From Burkholderiales bacterium (GTDB lineage: Bacteria; Pseudomonadota; Gammaproteobacteria; Burkholderiales; Burkholderiaceae_C), in the NCBI GenBank assembly GCA_013044035.1, contig JABEVE010000033.1, positions 1 through 61,331 of the forward strand: a DNA stretch of 61,331 nucleotides, given 5' to 3'. A program made the position numbers and the translations under genes. Every line of letters begins with the position of its first letter. The stretch's first letter is position 1. Shown piece by piece: positions 52,190 to 59,962 of this stretch. The notes under the pieces are model-generated. The model saw only the letters and a list, made by a program, of their open reading frames with translations. It did not search any database and was not told where the DNA came from.

Positions 52190-52726
52190 CTAGGGTTTGC
52201 CGTGGCTCAGGCCGCGGCCGAGGAAGGCGAGGATTTCGGCGCCCTGGTTGTCGGCCGGTGGGGTGTTCGCGGTGCTGGGTGTGGCGCGGCGGCGTTCGAT
52301 TTGCACCCCGACGGATTCCACGTCGGCGAACTTGTGGGGCTTGGCCACGCTGACCCGTGCCCAGTCGGCGCCGAACTCGTCGAGCAGGATGGCGGCGACG
52401 CTTTCGGCGAAGGCTTCGAGCAGGCGGTGCTGGTGGCTTTGCAGGTGCTGCAGCAGACGCGTGCGCACGGCGCCGTAGTCGATGGTGTCGCCGATGCGGT
52501 CGGAGCCGCAGGCTGGCAGGTGCAATCGGCCAGCGGTCACGTCGATCAGCACGGGTTGGGGTCGGCGCAACTCATCGTCGAAGATACCGATCACGGTCTC
52601 GCCCCGCAGGCCGCGAATGAAGACGGTGTCGAGCGGCGGCGCAGTGGATGCAGCCTCCACCTGGGTCTCGGATCGAGCCGCGGAATCGACCTGCTGCCGG
52701 GTTGAGAGGGCGTGGATCTTGGGCAT
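52190..52726 (-). CDS. Dihydroneopterin aldolase-like protein (FolB family) in the H4MPT cluster
   Basis: A 178-residue FolB-like protein. The family region runs VFIRGLRGETVIGIFDDELR, then DTIDYGAVRTRLLQHLQSHQ and RVSVAKPHKFADVESVGVQI. An extra stretch of about 35 residues precedes the domain. A dihydroneopterin aldolase inside an fhc cluster presumably serves pterin supply for methanopterin synthesis rather than folate. It ends the fhc transcript, 105 bases after fhcC. Confidence 0.85.
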   Translation of the reverse strand: MPKIHALSTRQQVDSAARSETQVEAASTAPPLDTVFIRGLRGETVIGIFDDELRRPQPVLIDVTAGRLHLPACGSDRIGDTIDYGAVRTRLLQHLQSHQHRLLEAFAESVAAILLDEFGADWARVSVAKPHKFADVESVGVQIERRRATPSTANTPPADNQGAEILAFLGRGLSHGKP

Positions 52727-52831: not shown

Positions 52832-53641
52832 TCATGGCGCCAGCACCAGGATCTCGCCTTTGCCGCCGCAGGCCAGGTCGCCGCAGTGGCGCTGGGCCTG
52901 GCCATGCAGCGGCAGCAGGCCGGGCAGCCATGCAGCGGCGGCACGCGCCAGCAGCCGCAGCCAGGTGAGGTCGACAGCGCCGCAGGCGTTGTAGGTGATG
53001 GGGAACTCGGGCGCTTGCCGCAGCAGCAGGCTGCCGCGCCGCAGGCCCAGGCCGGGCAGGGGGCCGCAGCGCGGTGTGACGAGAGTGCCGGCCAGCATGC
53101 CGGCGCCGCAGGCCGCGCCGCAGCCCTCGGCCACCAGCACCAGGCCACGGCGCATGCGGTGGCCGGCGCGGTCGCCCGCGCTGCCGTGCACCACCAGTGC
53201 TCCGCCAGCCATGCCTTGGCGCGCGTCGTGCAGCGCTGCGGCGAGGCAGTGGCCGGCGTCACCGAGCACGCGGATCAGGCCACCGTGCATGCCGCTGCCG
53301 GCGAAGTCGCCACAGTCGCCATCGACGATGATTTCCCCCGCCTGCATGTCCTGGCCGAGCGCCGCGCCGGCATGGCCTTCGACGCGCAGGCAGCCGCCGT
53401 CCAGGCTCCGTCCCAGGCCGTCCAGGCGGCGCGTGCCGGTGCGCACGATCAGCAGCTCGGGGTTGTCGCTGCCGTTGTCGCCGACCTTGAACAGCGTGCC
53501 GATGTCGCCGGTACCAGGGCGCGGCGACAGCGGCTGGCGGGCCGCAGCGTCTGGCGTGAGCGCGCCGAGCAGGCGCGGGGTCAGGCCGCGCAGATCGTCG
53601 GGCGCGGGGGCCTGTTCACGCAGTGTGAGAACCAGGCTCAT
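52832..53641 (-). CDS. fhcC: Formyltransferase/hydrolase complex subunit C (FhcC)
   Basis: A 269-residue subunit of the Fhc complex, homologous to FwdC/FmdC. It shows the repeated GxxGxxx(A/G)G beta-helix units (GDCGDFAGSGMHGGLIRVLG, then ARQGMAGGALVVHGSAGDRA and AGMLAGTLV) of glutamate synthase-like domains. It is a structural partner of FhcA in the complex that turns formyl-H4MPT into formate. The gap to fhcD is 25 bases. Confidence 0.93.
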   Translation of the reverse strand: MSLVLTLREQAPAPDDLRGLTPRLLGALTPDAAARQPLSPRPGTGDIGTLFKVGDNGSDNPELLIVRTGTRRLDGLGRSLDGGCLRVEGHAGAALGQDMQAGEIIVDGDCGDFAGSGMHGGLIRVLGDAGHCLAAALHDARQGMAGGALVVHGSAGDRAGHRMRRGLVLVAEGCGAACGAGMLAGTLVTPRCGPLPGLGLRRGSLLLRQAPEFPITYNACGAVDLTWLRLLARAAAAWLPGLLPLHGQAQRHCGDLACGGKGEILVLAP

Positions 53642-53666: not shown

Positions 53667-54614
53667 TCATGCCAGGATCTCCCGCAGGGGGTAATGGAAT
53701 TTGCCGAGTTTGCCGCCGTAGTTGCCGGCGGACAGGCGCAGCACCCCGGCGGCGGCGCCGAGGGTGCAGATGGCCAACATGGCGGCGCGCATGGCGGCGC
53801 GCATCTCGGCGTCGCTCAGGGCGTCGAGCACGATCTCCATCACGCCGCCCACCACGGCGTCCAGCGCGCTGTCGGTGACGCCGCGCAGGGTGGGGCAGTA
53901 GCGGTCGTTGGTCGATGCCGGCAATTTGGCATAGCGCGAGCCCACCTTGGAGCCCGAGCGCGCGATGCCGCCGGGGAAGGGCGCGATCACTCCGGGCAGC
54001 GCCGCGATGGCGGCGACGGCCGCCTCGCACGCCGCCAGCGCCTGGGCGCGGCTGCGCCCCAGCACCAGCACATTGCCGCCGCCGATGGCGCGCAGCAGGC
54101 CGGTGCTTTCCTCGGCGAGGAATTCGCCGTCCATCACCGGGATGCGCCAGTGGCGCCGCCCGTCCACGATCTTCGACATCTGCCAGCCGTCTCCGAAGTA
54201 GCGCAGGTTGCGGCCCAGCGCGATGCGCTCCTCGCTTGTGCAGCCGGCGTACACGGCGGTGGTCGGGCAGGTCAGCACGCATTGGCCGACACGGCGCTCG
54301 ACCTGCTTGGCCAACTCCTGCGTGGATACGGCGAACAGCAGCACCGCCACGCCGGGACGGCCATCGGGCGTGATGGCAGCGTCGAGTTCGCGTTCGATGC
54401 CGGCTTCGCAGCCGCAGCCGATGACCGAGGTGGCGAAGCCGCAGGCGGAGGTGGCCGCCTGACGTGCCCAGGCCAGGGTGTCCGCAGTGATGAGCAGGCG
54501 CGTGGCCTTCATGCCGAAGGCCTCGGCGAAGGTGTCGTCGATGGCCACGCCGTTGCGCAGGAGCGGCTCGCCCGTGCTTGGGGTGCCGGTCTCGGTGCGT
54601 TGGAGCGCAGTCAT
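53667..54614 (-). CDS. fhcD: Formylmethanofuran:tetrahydromethanopterin formyltransferase (FhcD)
   Basis: A 315-residue formyltransferase subunit (Ftr type) that moves the formyl group from formyl-H4MPT to the methanofuran analogue on the complex. It starts about residue 18 with PLLRNGVAIDDTFAEAFGMK, a family signature, and contains CPTTAVYAGCTSEERIALG and ANVLVLGRSRAQALAACEAA-like segments. It overlaps fhcA by 4 bases (ATGA), so translation is coupled. Confidence 0.94.
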   Translation of the reverse strand: MTALQRTETGTPSTGEPLLRNGVAIDDTFAEAFGMKATRLLITADTLAWARQAATSACGFATSVIGCGCEAGIERELDAAITPDGRPGVAVLLFAVSTQELAKQVERRVGQCVLTCPTTAVYAGCTSEERIALGRNLRYFGDGWQMSKIVDGRRHWRIPVMDGEFLAEESTGLLRAIGGGNVLVLGRSRAQALAACEAAVAAIAALPGVIAPFPGGIARSGSKVGSRYAKLPASTNDRYCPTLRGVTDSALDAVVGGVMEIVLDALSDAEMRAAMRAAMLAICTLGAAAGVLRLSAGNYGGKLGKFHYPLREILA

Positions 54615-56302
54615 GGCCCGGCTCTCCTGCAGGCGTGGGCCAAGAGCCGGCTGCTGCCGCAGGCGCAGAGGTCGTCGGCGCTCAGCTTGAGGTGGTCGAG
54701 CCTGAGCGTCATGGTGCGATCGAAGTGCGCGGCCAGCGGCTGCTCGATGGCATGGTCATACTCGGGTTTGACGGCGTGCACCGCGCCCTGCACGGCGCGC
54801 ACCACGGCACCGTCGCGCACGATCAGCTCGCCGTCCTTGAACACATGGCTGGGGCGGGCGAACATGGCTTCGCGGTCGGGGTCATCGCGGTAGGCGACGA
54901 TGTCCGCCGCCGCGCCGGGCGTCAGGTGGCCGCGGTCGGCCAGGCCCAGCGAACGCGCCGGGGCGGCGCGTGTCATGGTGGCGATCTCGGCCAGTGTGTA
55001 TTCACGCTCCAGGCTGCGCAACTGGCTGTGCGCGGCGACGTCGGGATGCACGGCGTCGAGCATGCGGTTGCGAAAGTCGCGGTCCATCAGCAGACGGATG
55101 AGATGGGGGTAGCCGGTGAAGGGCGCGCCGTTGGGATGGTCGGTGGTGAGGAAGATGCGCCACGGGTCGCGCACGCGCAGGAACAACTCCAGGCCGATGG
55201 CCCATTGCAGCGCGTTGACGAAGTTCTGGTCGCGGTAGTGAAACGGCACCACGCCGCAACCAGCGTCGCATTCGATGTCCATGCACATCCAGCTTTTCGG
55301 GCTGGCGTGGCGGTGGTTGCGGTACTGCGCCATGGTGTCGCCCGAGGCGGTGATGGTCTGGCCGAACATGATCTGGCCGACATCGATGGACACGTTGGGC
55401 TGGGCGTTCACCGCGTCGGCAATGCGCTCGGCCTCGGAGGAAAAGCGTCGCTCGCCTTCGGTGCCGTAGCTGTGGAACTGGATGTGGGTGATGTGGATGG
55501 GCAGGCCCTCGGCCGCCAGCATCGTCGCCAGCGTGGTGTCGGCATTGCCCGGCACGCCCAGGTTGCTGGCATGCACATGCAGCGGGTGCGGCACGCCCAG
55601 GGTGTGCACCGCCCGTACCAGGGCTTGCAGCACCTGGCGCGGGCTGATGCGGTAATGCGGGTGCAGGTCGTCGAAGTCGAGCGCGCGGGCGTTGAACTTG
55701 AAGGCCGAAATGCCGCCGGGGTTGACCACCTTCAGCGCCATCGCCTGGGTGTGATCCAGGGTCCAGCCGACATAGTCGGCCAGGGTCTGCGGCTCGGCGC
55801 CGCCAGCCAGCAGATGCAGGAAAAAATCGTCGTTGCCCAGCATGGCGTAAGCGCCCTTGTCCACCATGGGCGTGTCGCCCAGTTCGAGGTGGGTCTGGCG
55901 CGCGTTGGTTGGCAGCATGGCGGGTTCGAAGCAGGTGGTGTAGCCCATCTCGGCGTAGCGGTAGCCGGTGGCCCAGGTGGTGGGCGTGGCGTGGCCGCAG
56001 CCCGCGTGCTGCCAGCCGCCGCCCTCCAGCAGGCGGCCCGCGCGCCGGTTCAGCAGATGGTCTTCGCCCAGCAGGGTGCGGGCGATGTTGACCTTGCCAC
56101 CGCCGATATGGGTGTGGATGTCGATGGCGCCGGCCATGACCACGGCGCCGGCCAGATCGATGTCGTGGTCGATCGCCGCCTGCGGTCCGGGGTCGGCCAC
56201 CATGCGCCCGGCGTCCACGAACAGGCTGCGCCTGGTGCCGGCGGCGACATCGTCGAGACCCTGCGCGGGGTCGATGACCCGGGCGTTACGCAGCTGCAGC
56301 AT
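54611..56302 (-). CDS. fhcA: Formyltransferase/hydrolase complex subunit A (FhcA)
   Basis: A 563-residue amidohydrolase-superfamily subunit that hydrolyses formyl-methanofuran to formate. Zinc-site motifs are seen in AGAIDIHTHIGGGKVNIAR, PHPLHVHASNLGVPGNADTT, ITHIQFHSYGTEGERRFSS and FLTTDHPNGAPFTGYPHLIR. It is similar in length to FwdA/FhcA. It overlaps both fhcB (17 bases) and fhcD (4 bases). Confidence 0.96.
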   Translation of the reverse strand: MLQLRNARVIDPAQGLDDVAAGTRRSLFVDAGRMVADPGPQAAIDHDIDLAGAVVMAGAIDIHTHIGGGKVNIARTLLGEDHLLNRRAGRLLEGGGWQHAGCGHATPTTWATGYRYAEMGYTTCFEPAMLPTNARQTHLELGDTPMVDKGAYAMLGNDDFFLHLLAGGAEPQTLADYVGWTLDHTQAMALKVVNPGGISAFKFNARALDFDDLHPHYRISPRQVLQALVRAVHTLGVPHPLHVHASNLGVPGNADTTLATMLAAEGLPIHITHIQFHSYGTEGERRFSSEAERIADAVNAQPNVSIDVGQIMFGQTITASGDTMAQYRNHRHASPKSWMCMDIECDAGCGVVPFHYRDQNFVNALQWAIGLELFLRVRDPWRIFLTTDHPNGAPFTGYPHLIRLLMDRDFRNRMLDAVHPDVAAHSQLRSLEREYTLAEIATMTRAAPARSLGLADRGHLTPGAAADIVAYRDDPDREAMFARPSHVFKDGELIVRDGAVVRAVQGAVHAVKPEYDHAIEQPLAAHFDRTMTLRLDHLKLSADDLCACGSSRLLAHACRRAGP

Positions 56303-57548
56303 GGCCCAGTTCCTGGGTGATGCGGGCCAGCACCTCGGCCACGGTGGGGAGGTCGGCCGGGGCCGGGGCCATCAGCGGCAGCGTGACCACCTGGTCCATG
56401 CGGCTGAGCATGCCAGGGGCCTGCACCCCGGGCACGGCCACCGGGATGAACACGTCCGGCGCGGGGTCAAGGCGCAGGTCGGCGCGGCCCAGCACGATGC
56501 GCGGGCAGCGTGCCGGTGGGGGCGTGCGCGCCGGGTCGAAGGCGCTGATCCACAGCAGCGCATCGGCCTCGCCGGCGGCCAGCAGGGTGTCGGCACCGCG
56601 TTGCAGGGGGTCGCTCTGCGCCATGCCGTTGACGAAGCGCAGGCGCGGCGGGTAGCCCGCCAGCCAGGTGCAGACCTGGGCGGCACTGGTGCCGCCGTCG
56701 CCTCCACCCAGCGGCAGCACCGACCAACGCGTGCGGGTGTTGAGTTCGCGCACCAGTTCCGCCATGGCGCGCACCGCCAGGTCGGCATGCGGGAAGTCCA
56801 GCTCGGCGGCGCTCCAGATCAGTACGCCGTAGCGCGCGGAATGCATCGTCTCCAACAGCGCGTCGAAGCGTTCGAGCGCGACGCCGTGCAGCGCCGTGGC
56901 GTCCAGGCGCTGGCCGGCGAGGCGCGCGCGCAGCAGGCCAAACGCCTCGGCCAGGTGTAGGTTGGGCAGGTCGATGATGTTGGCGAGGTCTGCACCGGCG
57001 GGCCATGCCGCAGGCCGGAGGAGAGCAGAACCGATGGCGATGATCCGCCGGTGCAGTTCGCCAAACGGGGAGGACAGCGTGGGGGCCAGGCAGCGCTCGA
57101 CCAGGCGCGGCTGGTAGGCCCCCAGCGTGCCCGCGAGCACCACCACGTCGGCGCGGTTGCGCAATTCCGACAAGGTGGTGGACATCCAGCCGCTGTCCTG
57201 AAAGGGGAACGGGTTGCGCTGCTGCGCGGTGCTGTCCATCGGGTCCAGCGCCGCATCCACGCGCTCGGCCAGCATCACCGCGGCGCGCTGCCCGGCGATG
57301 TCACAGCCCAGTCCGGCGATCAGCGGCTGCCGGGCCTGCGCCAGCAGGGTGGCGGCGGCACGCGCGGCTTGCGGCCAGGTGGCAGGGCTGCCGTCGACGC
57401 GCGCCTGACCTTGCGGCGGCGCAGGGAACAGGGCCACCGCGCGGGCGCAGCCCGCGGCCTCGACCCGTGCACGGCCGTCGCGCAGGCCCACCACGAGGTC
57501 GTCGCAGAGCAGGCCGCAGAACGGGCAGGTCACGGAGGAGGCGGGCAT
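56286..57548 (-). CDS. fhcB: Formyltransferase/hydrolase complex subunit B (FhcB)
   Basis: A 420-residue subunit homologous to the large molybdopterin subunit FwdB. The N terminus SSVTCPFCGLLCDDLVVGLR keeps a Cys-rich start, and WSVLPLGGGDGGTSAAQVCT and the late VAVPGVQAPGMLSRMDQVV follow. In bacteria FhcB is thought to have lost formate dehydrogenase activity and to be structural. It is the first gene of the leftward fhc unit, with a sigma-54-like promoter 100 bases upstream. Confidence 0.94.
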   Translation of the reverse strand: MPASSVTCPFCGLLCDDLVVGLRDGRARVEAAGCARAVALFPAPPQGQARVDGSPATWPQAARAAATLLAQARQPLIAGLGCDIAGQRAAVMLAERVDAALDPMDSTAQQRNPFPFQDSGWMSTTLSELRNRADVVVLAGTLGAYQPRLVERCLAPTLSSPFGELHRRIIAIGSALLRPAAWPAGADLANIIDLPNLHLAEAFGLLRARLAGQRLDATALHGVALERFDALLETMHSARYGVLIWSAAELDFPHADLAVRAMAELVRELNTRTRWSVLPLGGGDGGTSAAQVCTWLAGYPPRLRFVNGMAQSDPLQRGADTLLAAGEADALLWISAFDPARTPPPARCPRIVLGRADLRLDPAPDVFIPVAVPGVQAPGMLSRMDQVVTLPLMAPAPADLPTVAEVLARITQELGHAAAA

Positions 57549-57646
57549 GGTCGGGAGCGAGGCGTCGGGGGTCGAGGTGCGGCGTTGGGTTGGCTGGAAA
57601 TGCCACGTCCGCCGGCGCGGGCCGCTCGGGTGGCTGCTCGTGCTCG

Positions 57647-57662
57647 TGCAGATTCCGTGCCA
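57647..57662 (-). promoter_or_regulatory. Sigma-54-type -24/-12 promoter for the fhc unit
   Basis: On the minus strand this reads TGGCACGGAATCTGCA, preceded by C. Against the sigma-54 consensus YTGGCACG-N4-TTGCW the -24 block matches fully and the -12 block has one mismatch (C for the first T). GG and GC are 10 bases apart, as required. The start of transcription would be near 57636, about 88 bases before the fhcB start. Confidence 0.7.
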
Positions 57663-57760
57663 GACCCGGCTGCGGCACGCAAGCCTGAAAAATCAAGTGC
57701 TTCGGGCGTTTGGGTGCTTGAGCGCGCTGGGGCTTGGTGTCCCACGGCTGTGCGCGTGGC

Positions 57761-57801
57761 CGTGACAGAGTGTCACGTCTGAGACCGTCTGATGCGTCTG
57801 A
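57761..57801. promoter_or_regulatory. Inverted repeat and three phased GTCTGA repeats (shared enhancer candidate)
   Basis: CGTGACA-GAG-TGTCACG (57761-57777) is a perfect 7-3-7 inverted repeat. It is joined to GTCTGA at 57777, 57787 and 57796, spaced 10 and 9 bases, close to one helical turn. The repeat centre is about 133 bases upstream of the predicted fhc start and about 98 bases upstream of the mptG start, right for an enhancer-binding protein acting on both sigma-54 promoters. Confidence 0.6.
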
Positions 57802-57840
57802 AAACCCCCTAGGCGCTTGATTGTGAAGGCCTTGCGCCGA

Positions 57841-57856
57841 TGGCATGTCCTTTGCT
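57841..57856 (+). promoter_or_regulatory. Sigma-54-type -24/-12 promoter for mptG
   Basis: TGGCATGTCCTTTGCT matches the sigma-54 consensus TGGCACG-N4-TTGCW with one difference (T for C at the sixth base). GG and GC are 10 bases apart. Transcription would start near 57867, about 23 bases before the mptG ATG at 57890. Confidence 0.7.
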
Positions 57857-57889
57857 TCCAAAGGGTTCACAACAAGGCCACGACACGCC

Positions 57890-59017
57890 ATGCACGACTC
57901 CCTGGAATTCCTGCGCGAACCCCTTTCCCAGCGGGTGGAGGTGCAGGCGCATGCCCGCTTGCACCTGGGTTTCTTCGACCTTCACGGAGGTCTGGGCCGC
58001 CGTTTCGGCAGTCTTGGAGTCGCGCTCGACGGCCTGAGCACGCGCTTGCTGGCCCGACCCGCGGACGAGACCAGCGCCAGCGGCCCGCGCGCCGAACGCG
58101 CCGTGGCCTACGCGCGTCTGGCGCTGGCCCATCTGGACCAGTCCCTGGGCCGGCGCGAAGGCGCGCGGCATGGCGTCGCCATCGAACTGAGTCAGGCCCT
58201 GCCCGAGCATGCCGGCCTGGGGTCCGGAACCCAGCTTGCGCTGGCCGTGGGCAGTGCCGTGGCGCGGCTGCAGGGCTTGCGCTGGCCGGGGCGGAGCATG
58301 GCCGCCGTGCTCGACCGGGGCCGGCGTTCGGGCATCGGCCTGGGCACCTTCGAGCAGGGTGGTTTTGTGGTCGACGGCGGCCATGCCGAGGCCGACTCGC
58401 GCCCGCCCAGCGTCATCGCCCGCTTGCCGTTCCCGCAGGACTGGCGCTGGGTGCTGGTGTTCGACGACCACCACCAAGGCCTGAGCGGCCCGGCCGAACG
58501 CCAGGCCTTCGCGCGCCTGCCCTGCTTTCCCGAGGACCAGGCCGCGCAGTTGTGCCGGTTGGTGCTGATGCAGTTGCTGCCGGCATTGGCCGAAGGGGAC
58601 ATCGACGGTTTCGGCCGGGCGGTCACCACGCTTCAAGACAGCGTCGGCGACCATTTCGCTGCGGCCCAGGGCGGGCGCTACGCCAGCACCCGGGTGGCGC
58701 GCGTTCTGCAGGTGCTTCGCCGCGCCGGCGCCGCCGCCGTCGGTCAAACCTCGTGGGGGCCGACGGGCTTCGCCTTGGCTGAGGGCTTGACGCAGGCGCG
58801 TGCGCTGGTGGATGCCGCCCGCGCGTCGCGGCTCGAACCCGGCCTGCGCTTGCAGATTTGCGCCGCGCGCAACCGTGGCGCCGACATCGTCGCCCACACC
58901 ATCCGGCCCGAGCACGCGGAACTGGCGCCGTCCACGCTTCTTCCCCATGCGCATGCCGCCCGTGCGGCAGGCCAGGCATCGGCCGCCGCGCCCGCACGCA
59001 CGCCGGCACGGGTCTGA
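57890..59017 (+). CDS. mptG: Beta-ribofuranosylaminobenzene 5'-phosphate synthase MptG
   Basis: The first committed enzyme of methanopterin synthesis: it joins p-aminobenzoate to PRPP with loss of CO2. The product is 375 residues with a GHMP-kinase-like fold (HARLHLGFFDLHGGLGRRFG, ELSQALPEHAGLGSGTQLAL, GIGLGTFEQGGFVVDGGHAE, AAAVGQTSWGPTGFAL). The ATG at 57890 is preferred over in-frame upstream starts because it lies just after the sigma-54-like promoter. It is followed by mtdB after 33 bases. Confidence 0.94.
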   Translation: MHDSLEFLREPLSQRVEVQAHARLHLGFFDLHGGLGRRFGSLGVALDGLSTRLLARPADETSASGPRAERAVAYARLALAHLDQSLGRREGARHGVAIELSQALPEHAGLGSGTQLALAVGSAVARLQGLRWPGRSMAAVLDRGRRSGIGLGTFEQGGFVVDGGHAEADSRPPSVIARLPFPQDWRWVLVFDDHHQGLSGPAERQAFARLPCFPEDQAAQLCRLVLMQLLPALAEGDIDGFGRAVTTLQDSVGDHFAAAQGGRYASTRVARVLQVLRRAGAAAVGQTSWGPTGFALAEGLTQARALVDAARASRLEPGLRLQICAARNRGADIVAHTIRPEHAELAPSTLLPHAHAARAAGQASAAAPARTPARV

Positions 59018-59050: not shown

Positions 59051-59962
59051 ATGGACAAACCGTATCTGCTGCACTTCGCCACGCCTGGCCCGCGCGTCAG
59101 TCCCTTCGACGTGAACATGGCCTACGACGCCGGCTGGGACGCGGTGATTCCCTACGCCGGCGTGGGGCTGGACGACATCGCCGGTTTCACCCAGGACGCC
59201 ATCTTCTCGCGCGGCCCGCGCGGTGCGCGGCGCACCGGGTTGTTCATCGGCGGGCGCGATGCGCTGCTCGCCACCGACATGCTGGAGGCTGCGCGCGGCG
59301 CCATGGTGCCGCCCTTCGAGGTGTCGGTGTTCGCCGATCCCAGCGGTGCCTACACCACCGCCGCCGCCATGCTGGCCAAGGTCGAGCAGGCGTTGGCGGC
59401 GCGCTTCGCGCAGGACATGAATGGTCGCAGCGTGCTGCTGCTGGGCGGTACCGGCCCGGTGGGCCTGGTGGCCGCCACGCTGGCGGCGCAGGCCGGCGCG
59501 CAGGTGCGCATCGCCAGCCATCACGGCGCCGCGCAGGCCGGCAAGGCGGCAGCGCTGTTGCGGCAGCGCTTCGCCCTGGATGTCGAGGCGGTGGACTCCG
59601 GTTCGGCCGAGGCCCGTCGGCGCCAGCTCGAGGATGTCGAGGTGGTGCTGGCCGTCGCCAAGGCCGGCGTGCAGGTGCTGTCGGCCGCCGAACTGGCACA
59701 GGCGCCACGGCTGCGCGTGGCCGCCGACCTCAACGCCGTGCCGCCCGCCGGCCTCGAACCGGTGGGTGTGATGGACGATGCCAAGCCCCTGGCCACGCAT
59801 GCCGAGCGCGAGGCGCCAGCCGTCGGCATCGGTGCGCTGGCCATCGGCAACCTCAAGTACAAAACCCAGCAAGTCCTGCTGCAGCGCATGCGCGAGACCG
59901 AAACCCCGGTCTACCTCGACTTCGCCGAATGCCTGGCCGAAGCCCGCCGCCAACGGACCTGA
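59051..59962 (+). CDS. mtdB: Methylene-tetrahydromethanopterin dehydrogenase MtdB
   Basis: Oxidises methylene-H4MPT to methenyl-H4MPT with NAD(P); 303 residues. It begins KPYLLHFATPGPRVSPFDVN and MAYDAGWDAVIPYAGVGLDD, and the nucleotide-binding motif is VLLLGGTGPVGLVAATLAA. The C terminus with IGALAIGNLKYKTQQVLLQ and VYLDFAECLAEA is typical. It lies in the rightward unit with mptG; the next reading frame starts 7 bases later. Confidence 0.95.
   Translation: MDKPYLLHFATPGPRVSPFDVNMAYDAGWDAVIPYAGVGLDDIAGFTQDAIFSRGPRGARRTGLFIGGRDALLATDMLEAARGAMVPPFEVSVFADPSGAYTTAAAMLAKVEQALAARFAQDMNGRSVLLLGGTGPVGLVAATLAAQAGAQVRIASHHGAAQAGKAAALLRQRFALDVEAVDSGSAEARRRQLEDVEVVLAVAKAGVQVLSAAELAQAPRLRVAADLNAVPPAGLEPVGVMDDAKPLATHAEREAPAVGIGALAIGNLKYKTQQVLLQRMRETETPVYLDFAECLAEARRQRT

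Follow-up and report, generated by a model that had tools for sequence, protein, structure and literature searches.

What switches on the two halves of a formaldehyde-oxidation gene cluster that are read away from each other, and might they share a single switch? The question is raised by a short gap in the window, by which we mean the whole 61,331-bp stretch of DNA that was analysed, and which is contig C71 of its source genome (G000; 3.7 Mb in 108 contigs, 95% complete). To our knowledge, little is known about the regulation of the H4MPT formaldehyde pathway in bacteria. Our answer, to which we would give a probability of roughly 85%, is that the gap is a divergent pair of sigma-54 promoters with a shared dyad for an AcoR-like activator, so that a C1 substrate would start both operons together. 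What we report on sites, geometry, conservation, rpoN and activator genes and linkage in relatives is computed from the sequences.

The gap itself spans 341 bp (57549-57889), beginning next to the fhcB start at 57548 on the minus strand, and the genes on its two sides are these:

52190-52726, minus strand: FolB-like dihydroneopterin aldolase gene, possibly part of the fhcBADC operon (TIGR00526, 68.4 bits; PF02152)
52832-53641, minus strand: fhcC (TIGR03122, 164.3 bits, cut-off 130.65)
53667-54614, minus strand: fhcD, formylmethanofuran:H4MPT formyltransferase (TIGR03119, 419 bits, cut-off 292.6)
54611-56302, minus strand: fhcA (TIGR03121, 695.9 bits, cut-off 392.75)
56286-57548, minus strand: fhcB, first gene of the leftward operon, formylmethanofuran dehydrogenase subunit B-like (TIGR03129, 244 bits, below the curated cut-off of 327.8)
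57890-59017, plus strand: mptG, first gene of the rightward operon, beta-RFAP synthase family (TIGR00144, 159.8 bits, above the cut-off of 113.5; NF040726, 179.1 bits, below the cut-off of 328)
59051-59962, plus strand: mtdB-like gene, methylene-H4MPT dehydrogenase (PF09176 Mpt_N, 118.8 bits)

The identities of fhcB and mptG are hardly in doubt despite the scores below cut-off, because gene order and the other models agree. The longest mptG frame opens further upstream, at an in-frame ATG at 57845 that lies within the predicted mptG promoter, and a sigma-54 transcript would therefore need a later start, for example the ATG at 57890. At the far end of the window, the last 80 or so bases before 61331 are a contig-end repeat whose translation in the open frame is a run of Gln-Ala-Gln-Gln units, and it may be this repeat that broke the assembly of the H4MPT cluster.

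Are there really sigma-54 promoters here? Both of the -24/-12 sites claimed by the earlier note, one on each strand and each with the GG-GC spacing, are found when the gap is checked:

57647-57662, minus strand (read 57662-57647): predicted sigma-54 promoter of fhcBADC, TGGCACG-GAAT-CTGCA (TGGCACGGAATCTGCA), GG-N10-GC
57841-57856, plus strand: predicted sigma-54 promoter of mptG-mtdB, TGGCATG-TCCT-TTGCT (TGGCATGTCCTTTGCT), GG-N10-GC

Both agree with the consensus TGGCAYR-N4-YTGCW with GG-N10-GC, and they predict transcription starts at about 57636 on the minus strand, 88 nt ahead of the fhcB ATG, and at about 57867 on the plus strand, 23 nt ahead of the ATG at 57890. A scan of the 61,331 bp for TGGCAYGN4YTGCW returns two matches, both in the gap, against 0.19 expected, and two or more matches occur in 2 of 100 shuffles of the window. 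Scored with a rough weight matrix, the gap sites rank first and second in the window at 19.4 and 17.1 bits, the next site reaching 14.3; among 3000 dinucleotide shuffles of the gap, at least 19.3 bits on the plus strand was reached once and at least 17.0 bits on the minus strand six times, and no shuffle had both strands at 17.0 or above. Across the whole source genome the same pattern has 26 matches, compared with four for a reversed control, and the genome does encode sigma-54 itself (RpoN; PF04552, 213.5 bits, contig C27). Two other kinds of element were considered for the gap and set aside: a sigma-70 promoter, since a simple consensus scan of the gap gave no sigma-70-like site, and an RNA element, since an Rfam search of 57300-58100 came back without a match.

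Between the two sites lie three further features, of which the first is the one that matters most for the idea of a common switch:

57761-57777, strandless: perfect dyad CGTGACA-GAG-TGTCACG (CGTGACAGAGTGTCACG), the predicted activator binding site (UAS), between both sigma-54 sites
57776-57801, plus strand: three copies of CGTCTGA, starting at 57776, 57786 and 57795 (spacing 10 and 9)
57810-57822, minus strand: IHF-like sequence AATCAAGCGCCTA, between the dyad and the mptG promoter, one of two matches in the window to the rule WATCARNNNNYTR, which is written from the IHF consensus

The dyad is centred at -98 from the predicted mptG start and at -133 from the predicted fhcB start, in line with an inverted repeat about 100-130 bp from each, as had been described, and CGTGACA-N3-TGTCACG is found in a single copy in the source genome when up to one mismatch is allowed. 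By itself, however, such a dyad is not improbable in a GC-rich gap, and the case for it rests on conservation: some perfect dyad with 7-bp arms and a 1-10 bp spacer turns up in 690 of 3000 gap shuffles, and the dyad pattern with up to two mismatches in 27 of 100 window shuffles. The nearly one in four gap shuffles that hold a perfect 7-bp dyad, and the 2 in 100 window shuffles with at least two sigma-54 pattern matches, are also the best argument for seeing in all of this a chance resemblance in a GC-rich gap whose true promoters are of some other type, a view to which we return once the relatives have been heard. On the fhcB side of the dyad there is also, at 57688-57706, a sequence (AAAAATCAAGTGCTTCGG) that is IHF-like with one mismatch to the rule; it falls within an inverted match of 76% complementarity with 29-nt arms (57683-57711 and 57802-57830) that spans both sides of the dyad.

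What, then, has evolution kept? Within the genus, mptG has a match at E<=0.001 in seven of 28 genomes, those in G016 and G019 being weak and short (E about 1e-4), and the five genomes with a strong match are the same five that carry the dyad combined with the mptG-side sigma-54 site (G000, G004, G009, split across two contigs, G014 and G015). All four congeners with the gap keep both sigma-54 sites as well as the dyad, although their alignment with the window shows that the remaining gap sequence largely differs; their minus-strand site is TGGCATGGAACRTGCA, with RTGC rather than YTGC as its -12 box, and stands 75-76 bp from the dyad, as against 99 bp in the window. These kept elements, together with the rpoN and activator genes in the genome, support the proposal made before this analysis of two divergent sigma-54 promoters with a shared upstream element.

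Beyond the genus, the best 80 of 571 loci were taken from an mptG alignment scan of named genomes, and a match to the sigma-54 rule within 160 bp upstream on the mptG strand was found at 13 of 79 mptG loci, compared with 20 of 8417 background windows taken from the same loci. Where such a site is present, GNNACAN3TGTNNC lies within 260 bp in 8 of 13 cases, and where it is missing, in 0 of 65; relatedness makes the counts over mptG loci non-independent, and one locus with too little upstream sequence (L142) was left out of the 79, while a second (L088) was also left out of the dyad comparison, which thus covers 78 of the 80. The weight matrix instead of the rule gives an mptG-side site within about 120 bp at 14 of 80 loci, L100 being the difference. 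The loci with a site include those of Thiobacillus thioparus DSM 505 (L076), Parasulfuritortus cantonensis (L077), a Thiobacillus denitrificans MAG (L081), the betaproteobacterium SCN1 (L080), UBA6910 (L086), a Rhodocyclaceae MAG (L096), Candidatus Thiodiazotropha endolucinida (L111) and gammaproteobacterial MAGs (L113, L120), so some distant bacteria, most of them sulfur oxidisers, have kept the arrangement too. It is missing in 66 of the 79 loci, including every Methylobacter, Methylovulum, Methyloversatilis and Azospirillum record, and the control is therefore restricted to certain lineages and does not extend to the pathway in general.

The other two elements follow suit in part. A divergent minus-strand site stands at the corresponding place in the four congeners (G004, G009, G014, G015) and in L076, L077, L081 and L086, while the one in SCN1 is weak only (GGGCACAGAACCTGCT). 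The exact form GTGACAN3TGTCAC occurs in the mptG gap of nine genomes and relaxed forms in five further gaps; by the criteria used there is no dyad in the gaps of L092, L100, L110, L111 and L131, though sigma-54-like sites are present, and weak off-position matches in L119, L128, L139 and L152 were not counted as support. An order-wide search of 399 genomes for GTGACAN3TGTNNC followed after 40-70 bp by a sigma-54 site gave four matches, with none in the control, and all four are the fhcB/mptG gap: the window's own, that of G129 (L275), and those of two loci that duplicate stretches of L076 and L086 (L276 being contained in L076 and L277 in L086; L078 and G015, too, are one record). The earlier note had named conservation of both -24/-12 elements and of the inverted repeat in related genomes as a check on its idea, and this came out in its favour, in a limited set of lineages.

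The geometry of the gaps adds a second kind of evidence. Fourteen gaps, chosen for a dyad (nine exact, five relaxed) plus a sigma-54 site, were aligned and measured, one of them (L275) coming from the search that itself required a spacing of 40-70 bp; TGGCA and TTGC are present in all 14, as might be expected of gaps selected for such a site. The distance from dyad to plus-strand site is 53-55 bp in nine gaps and 63-64 bp in five, the window included, with nothing between, which means that the two classes differ by one helical turn. With a period of 10.5, the Rayleigh R for seven clade representatives is 0.96, a value reached by 4 in 100,000 uniform sets drawn from 50-70, the period, range and representatives being of our own choosing, and across the 14 selected gaps it is 0.90. 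The fhcB-side spacing, by contrast, is unphased (75-114 bp, R 0.31), so that the dyad sits as a UAS would, about 80-150 bp away and in phase with the promoter, on the mptG side, and at a distance without phase on the fhcB side.

The lesser features fare differently. The three GTCTGA repeats that the earlier note had pointed to are certainly present; as conserved activator sites they had to be given up, since none was found in the 13 other aligned gaps. The additional 9-10 bp between dyad and promoter in the window coincides with these private CGTCTGA repeats, which are probably an expansion of the spacer by one helical turn and not a conserved site. The IHF-like sequence appears at an equal place relative to the promoter in five of the 14 gaps (the window, L076, L077, L081 and L120) and is absent from that place in the other nine, namely the four congeners and L080, L086, L096, L113 and L275.

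With this in hand, chance resemblance has become extremely improbable as an account of the gap. It is largely refuted by the conservation in the genus, by the 399-genome search and by the comparison of 13 of 79 loci with 20 of 8417 background windows; conservation in other genera, a combined pattern exclusive to this gap, quantised spacing and the want of a sigma-70-like site in the gap all weigh against it. We return, then, to a pair of sigma-54 promoters, and ask which activator might serve them.

In several relatives there is an attractive candidate. A class of activator with GAF, AAA and HTH_8 domains, which we call the P0001 class (domains scanned on the G063 copy, GAF 46.4 bits), is encoded on the contig that holds both the gap and mtoX, the methanethiol oxidase gene, in G060, G062 and G063, at 15 to 68 kb from the gap, and the G060 (C11, 246877-248841) and G062 copies are 76-78% identical to that of G063. 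Directly after the activator gene comes a PTPS-like gene in G060 and G070 (PF01242), a PTPS-similar gene below family cut-offs in G062, and in G063 a flavoprotein gene that resembles dihydromethanopterin reductase below cut-off. Judged by these similarities, the genes look like pterin-cofactor genes, and a dedicated role for the activator would therefore fit. Upstream of the P0001-class genes there is a sigma-54-like site (in G060 by eye only) along with a dyad (GGGACACACTGTCCC, GGGACAGTTTGTTCC or GGTACAACCTGTACC) of the type GGGACA-N3-TGTCCC, which has the frame of the gap dyad. Of 18 genomes, 10 have a homologue above 690 bits and an eleventh has a split copy; the five genomes of the window's genus have none.

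The source genome has its own activators: ten matches to the sigma-54 activator domain, seven of them above 200 bits, two being AcoR-like over their length and named here after their contigs, C84 and C88. The C84 protein (GAF 43.9 bits) is encoded beside aldehyde dehydrogenase and PQQ alcohol dehydrogenase genes (L058, 8522-14679), perhaps an ethanol-type module. C88 adjoins a PQQ alcohol dehydrogenase gene (TIGR03075, 668.8 bits) with a strong sigma-54 site (L059, 1057-2985 and 4437-6770); it has an AAA+ domain (PF00158, 199.3 bits) with GAFTGA and a Fis-type HTH (PF02954, 45.3 bits), no GAF match at E<=0.001, and a PAS match below cut-off only. Orthologues of C88 (above 830 bits) are found in eight of the 28 genus genomes, among them all five with the gap (Fisher p 0.0006, with no correction for relatedness), and lie on the H4MPT contig about 22 kb from mptG in G004 and G009 and on another contig in G000, G014 and G015. 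At six of the eight C88-type loci, GGAGCAAACTGTTCC (a GGAGCA-AAC-TGTTCC dyad) stands about 100 bp ahead of the sigma-54 site, and a PQQ dehydrogenase follows at five of these six, the fetched locus of the sixth, G023, ending too soon; this promoter dyad differs from that of the fhcB/mptG gap. In G000 we also observe CGTGAC-N12-GTCACG just ahead of the sigma-54 site. By position and co-occurrence, C88 is the best candidate for an activator that would bind the gap in the window's genome. The earlier note had advised looking for an enhancer-binding protein gene near the cluster outside the window; the candidate gene does lie outside it, on another contig of this assembly.

We cannot offer one orthologue for all. 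No single activator orthologue group covers the nine genomes with an exact dyad, the Thiobacillus type (P0001) accounting for three and the C88 type for five, and this patchiness led us to reject the idea; in Parasulfuritortus (G061) neither type was found, and a contig-end fragment there (G061:C29) was rejected as a hidden Thiobacillus-type orthologue, being closest, at 70%, to another class, G060C2. This is where a different reading gains its footing, in which the sigma-54 promoters are real and the dyad belongs to another activator (a C84-type AcoR-like protein, NtrC or a GlrR-like protein) or to a regulator outside sigma-54 control, for example a dimeric repressor that blocks both promoters. 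The patchy orthology speaks for it, as do the sole AcoR-like protein found in G061, which is of the C84 class also present in G000, and the different dyad borne by the C88-type targets. Yet NtrC binds TGCACC-N5-GGTGCA and GlrR binds TGTC-N10-GACA, neither of which matches the gap dyad; a repressor would leave the phasing with the mptG-side site hard to explain, at what is a typical activator distance; and C84 adjoins aldehyde and PQQ alcohol dehydrogenase genes and has no match of its score class in G060, G062 or G063 among the matches listed. On balance we think this reading unlikely, though it deserves to be taken seriously, and continue with an AcoR-like activator on the dyad.

Does such an activator serve only this gap? 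A search of 18 genomes for the exact dyad found it once each in G000, G004, G009, G014, G015, G060 (T. thioparus) and G061 (Parasulfuritortus), twice each in G062, G063 and G070, and not at all in the other eight. Neither of the G070 dyads (on C17 and C375) lies at mptG, and both were rejected as further targets since a sigma-54 site is missing within 300 bp at 12 bits. The second dyads of G062 and G063 are about 25 kb from the first, within another divergent sigma-54 gap. In G062 this gap separates methanethiol oxidase (NF052453, 718 bits, cut-off 650) from the gamma subunit of formate dehydrogenase (NF004638, 206 bits, cut-off 198); in G063 mtoX lies on one side and on the other an open frame (L169) that by eye resembles the G062 gamma subunit, with a formate dehydrogenase alpha fragment further on along the same strand. 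As a side observation, the loci L170 and L174 (SCN1) and L169 and L173 (T. denitrificans MAG) hold an mtoX/formate dehydrogenase divergent sigma-54 gap with at least two dyads.

Elsewhere the picture is mixed. The mtoX genes of G060 and G061 have sigma-54 sites and related dyads, and that of G070 has sigma-54 sites. Of the 18 genomes, 11 have an mtoX above the family cut-off; the five from the window's genus are not among them, and G000 has a distant homologue at 96 bits. A sigma-54 site within about 600 bp upstream accompanies five of the 13 loci above cut-off, the eight without one being six lucinid-symbiont loci and those of G064 and G066. An observation from the gammaproteobacterial lucinid symbionts may be recorded here: at G067:C86 (8030-12363) and G071:C19 (30643-33296) an mtoX copy adjoins a P0001-class activator gene or a piece of an activator gene, the distance in G067 being 1.2 kb. 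To judge from these neighbourhoods, the regulon looks wider than the window, and in Thiobacillus relatives would include methanethiol oxidase and formate dehydrogenase.

These targets also bear on another reading, nitrogen control, according to which NtrC with sigma-54 would induce formaldehyde oxidation as part of methylamine use or nitrogen scavenging. The source genome certainly has NtrC (TIGR01818, 688 bits, cut-off 558.6), and contig C64 has sigma-54 pattern matches upstream of a stretch that includes nirB (TIGR02374, 922.7 bits). The gap dyad, CGTGACA-N3-TGTCACG, nevertheless departs from the NtrC site and has no second copy in the genome, and what the relatives add as further targets are genes for methanethiol oxidase and formate dehydrogenase, with no nitrogen genes among them. 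Because the dyad is not an NtrC site and the activators linked to it in relatives are AcoR-like and not NtrC, we rejected nitrogen control and consider it very improbable. Nitrogen state, one of the signals that had been suggested earlier for the activator, is thus unlikely.

How new is all this? The earlier note knew of no sigma-54 control described for the H4MPT pathway, and we too found no such report in the open-licence PubMed Central literature, among the matches listed. A close parallel is soluble methane monooxygenase of methanotrophs, which is under sigma-54/MmoR control from a -24/-12 promoter, YTGGCACGrNNNTTGCW, and which likewise places C1-oxidation genes behind such a promoter and a sigma-54 activator, GAF-bearing in Methylocella and Methyloferula; it differs in concerning methane oxidation and not the H4MPT pathway and in having mmoR inside the operon, and the sections of the article at hand do not describe a shared divergent gap (PMC5874634). 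Among AcoR-type activators, the domain order GAF-AAA-HTH_8 is shared by P0001 and C84, while C88 has AAA and HTH_8, and the neighbours of C84 and C88, alcohol and aldehyde dehydrogenase genes, recall the known alcohol and acetoin regulons; the targets proposed here, in contrast, are methanopterin-linked formaldehyde oxidation, methanethiol oxidase and formate dehydrogenase. The frequent AcoR-type motif of Clostridiales, in the excerpt at hand, has TGT and ACA 10-12 bp apart, unlike the ACA-N3-TGT of the gap dyad (PMC6615313). AdhR with SigL at Clostridium alcohol dehydrogenases, as presented in the portion of that paper available, also pairs sigma-54 with a dedicated activator for alcohol metabolism, but for Firmicute fermentation genes of an unrelated pathway (PMC7017808).

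In Methylosinus sporium, another C1 bacterium with the H4MPT pathway, control is of the RpoD type: RpoD motifs accompany most genes of methane and central carbon metabolism, and where the part of the report at hand names RpoN motifs, they belong to nitrogen genes (PMC12403871). In Ruegeria pomeroyi, mtoX is induced by methanethiol and its precursors and is adjoined, as far as the available part of the article goes, by an IclR-type regulator and not a sigma-54 activator (PMC5739008), and a Paraburkholderia list with fhcA and ftr gives these as induced in symbiosis, RpoN dependence not being reported in the part at hand (PMC5748707). The promoter architecture, in short, is canonical; the regulon appears new.

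Putting the pieces in order, we picture RNA polymerase with RpoN waiting at both -24/-12 sites, until an AcoR-like activator, with a ligand-sensing region, an AAA+ domain and a Fis-type HTH, would bind GTGACA-N3-TGTCAC between them. The DNA would then loop, perhaps helped by IHF on the mptG side in the window's genome and in Thiobacillus, and ATP hydrolysis would open both promoters, so that the operon for formylmethanofuran dehydrogenase and formyltransferase and the operon for methanopterin synthesis and methylene-H4MPT dehydrogenase would start together with the C1 substrate. We infer that the promoters are active, and C88 would be the protein that acts on them in the window's genome. The ligand is probably a C1 compound, since the enzymes so far recognised as targets in relatives either produce formaldehyde or formate or use them up; formaldehyde, methanol and methanethiol would be the ones to consider. 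In Thiobacillus relatives, the same class of activator would also turn on the enzyme that yields formaldehyde, methanethiol oxidase, and the one that disposes of formate, formate dehydrogenase, whereas in the window's organism, with no mtoX above cut-off, the source of formaldehyde is probably the PQQ alcohol dehydrogenase that has a sigma-54 site and lies next to C88.

One may go further and ask whether a dedicated GAF-type activator senses formaldehyde or a precursor (methanethiol, methanol) and, through GTGACA-N3-TGTCAC, switches on a complete C1 oxidation regulon, from methanethiol oxidase through methanopterin-linked formaldehyde oxidation to formate dehydrogenase, in sulfur-oxidising beta- and gammaproteobacteria, with the window's genus reusing the gap for a paralogous activator tied to PQQ alcohol dehydrogenase. 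We hold this bolder version only tentatively, as something a little short of an even bet. A shared on-switch with an identifiable activator, present also in Thiobacillus thioparus, makes a sensor of formaldehyde, methanol or methanethiol directly testable, and if the ligand were confirmed, the activator-promoter pair could be used as a biosensor for formaldehyde or methanethiol. For the bacteria themselves, it would mean that the control of formaldehyde oxidation, of formate oxidation and of methanethiol degradation, a step in the dimethylsulfide cycle, is linked.
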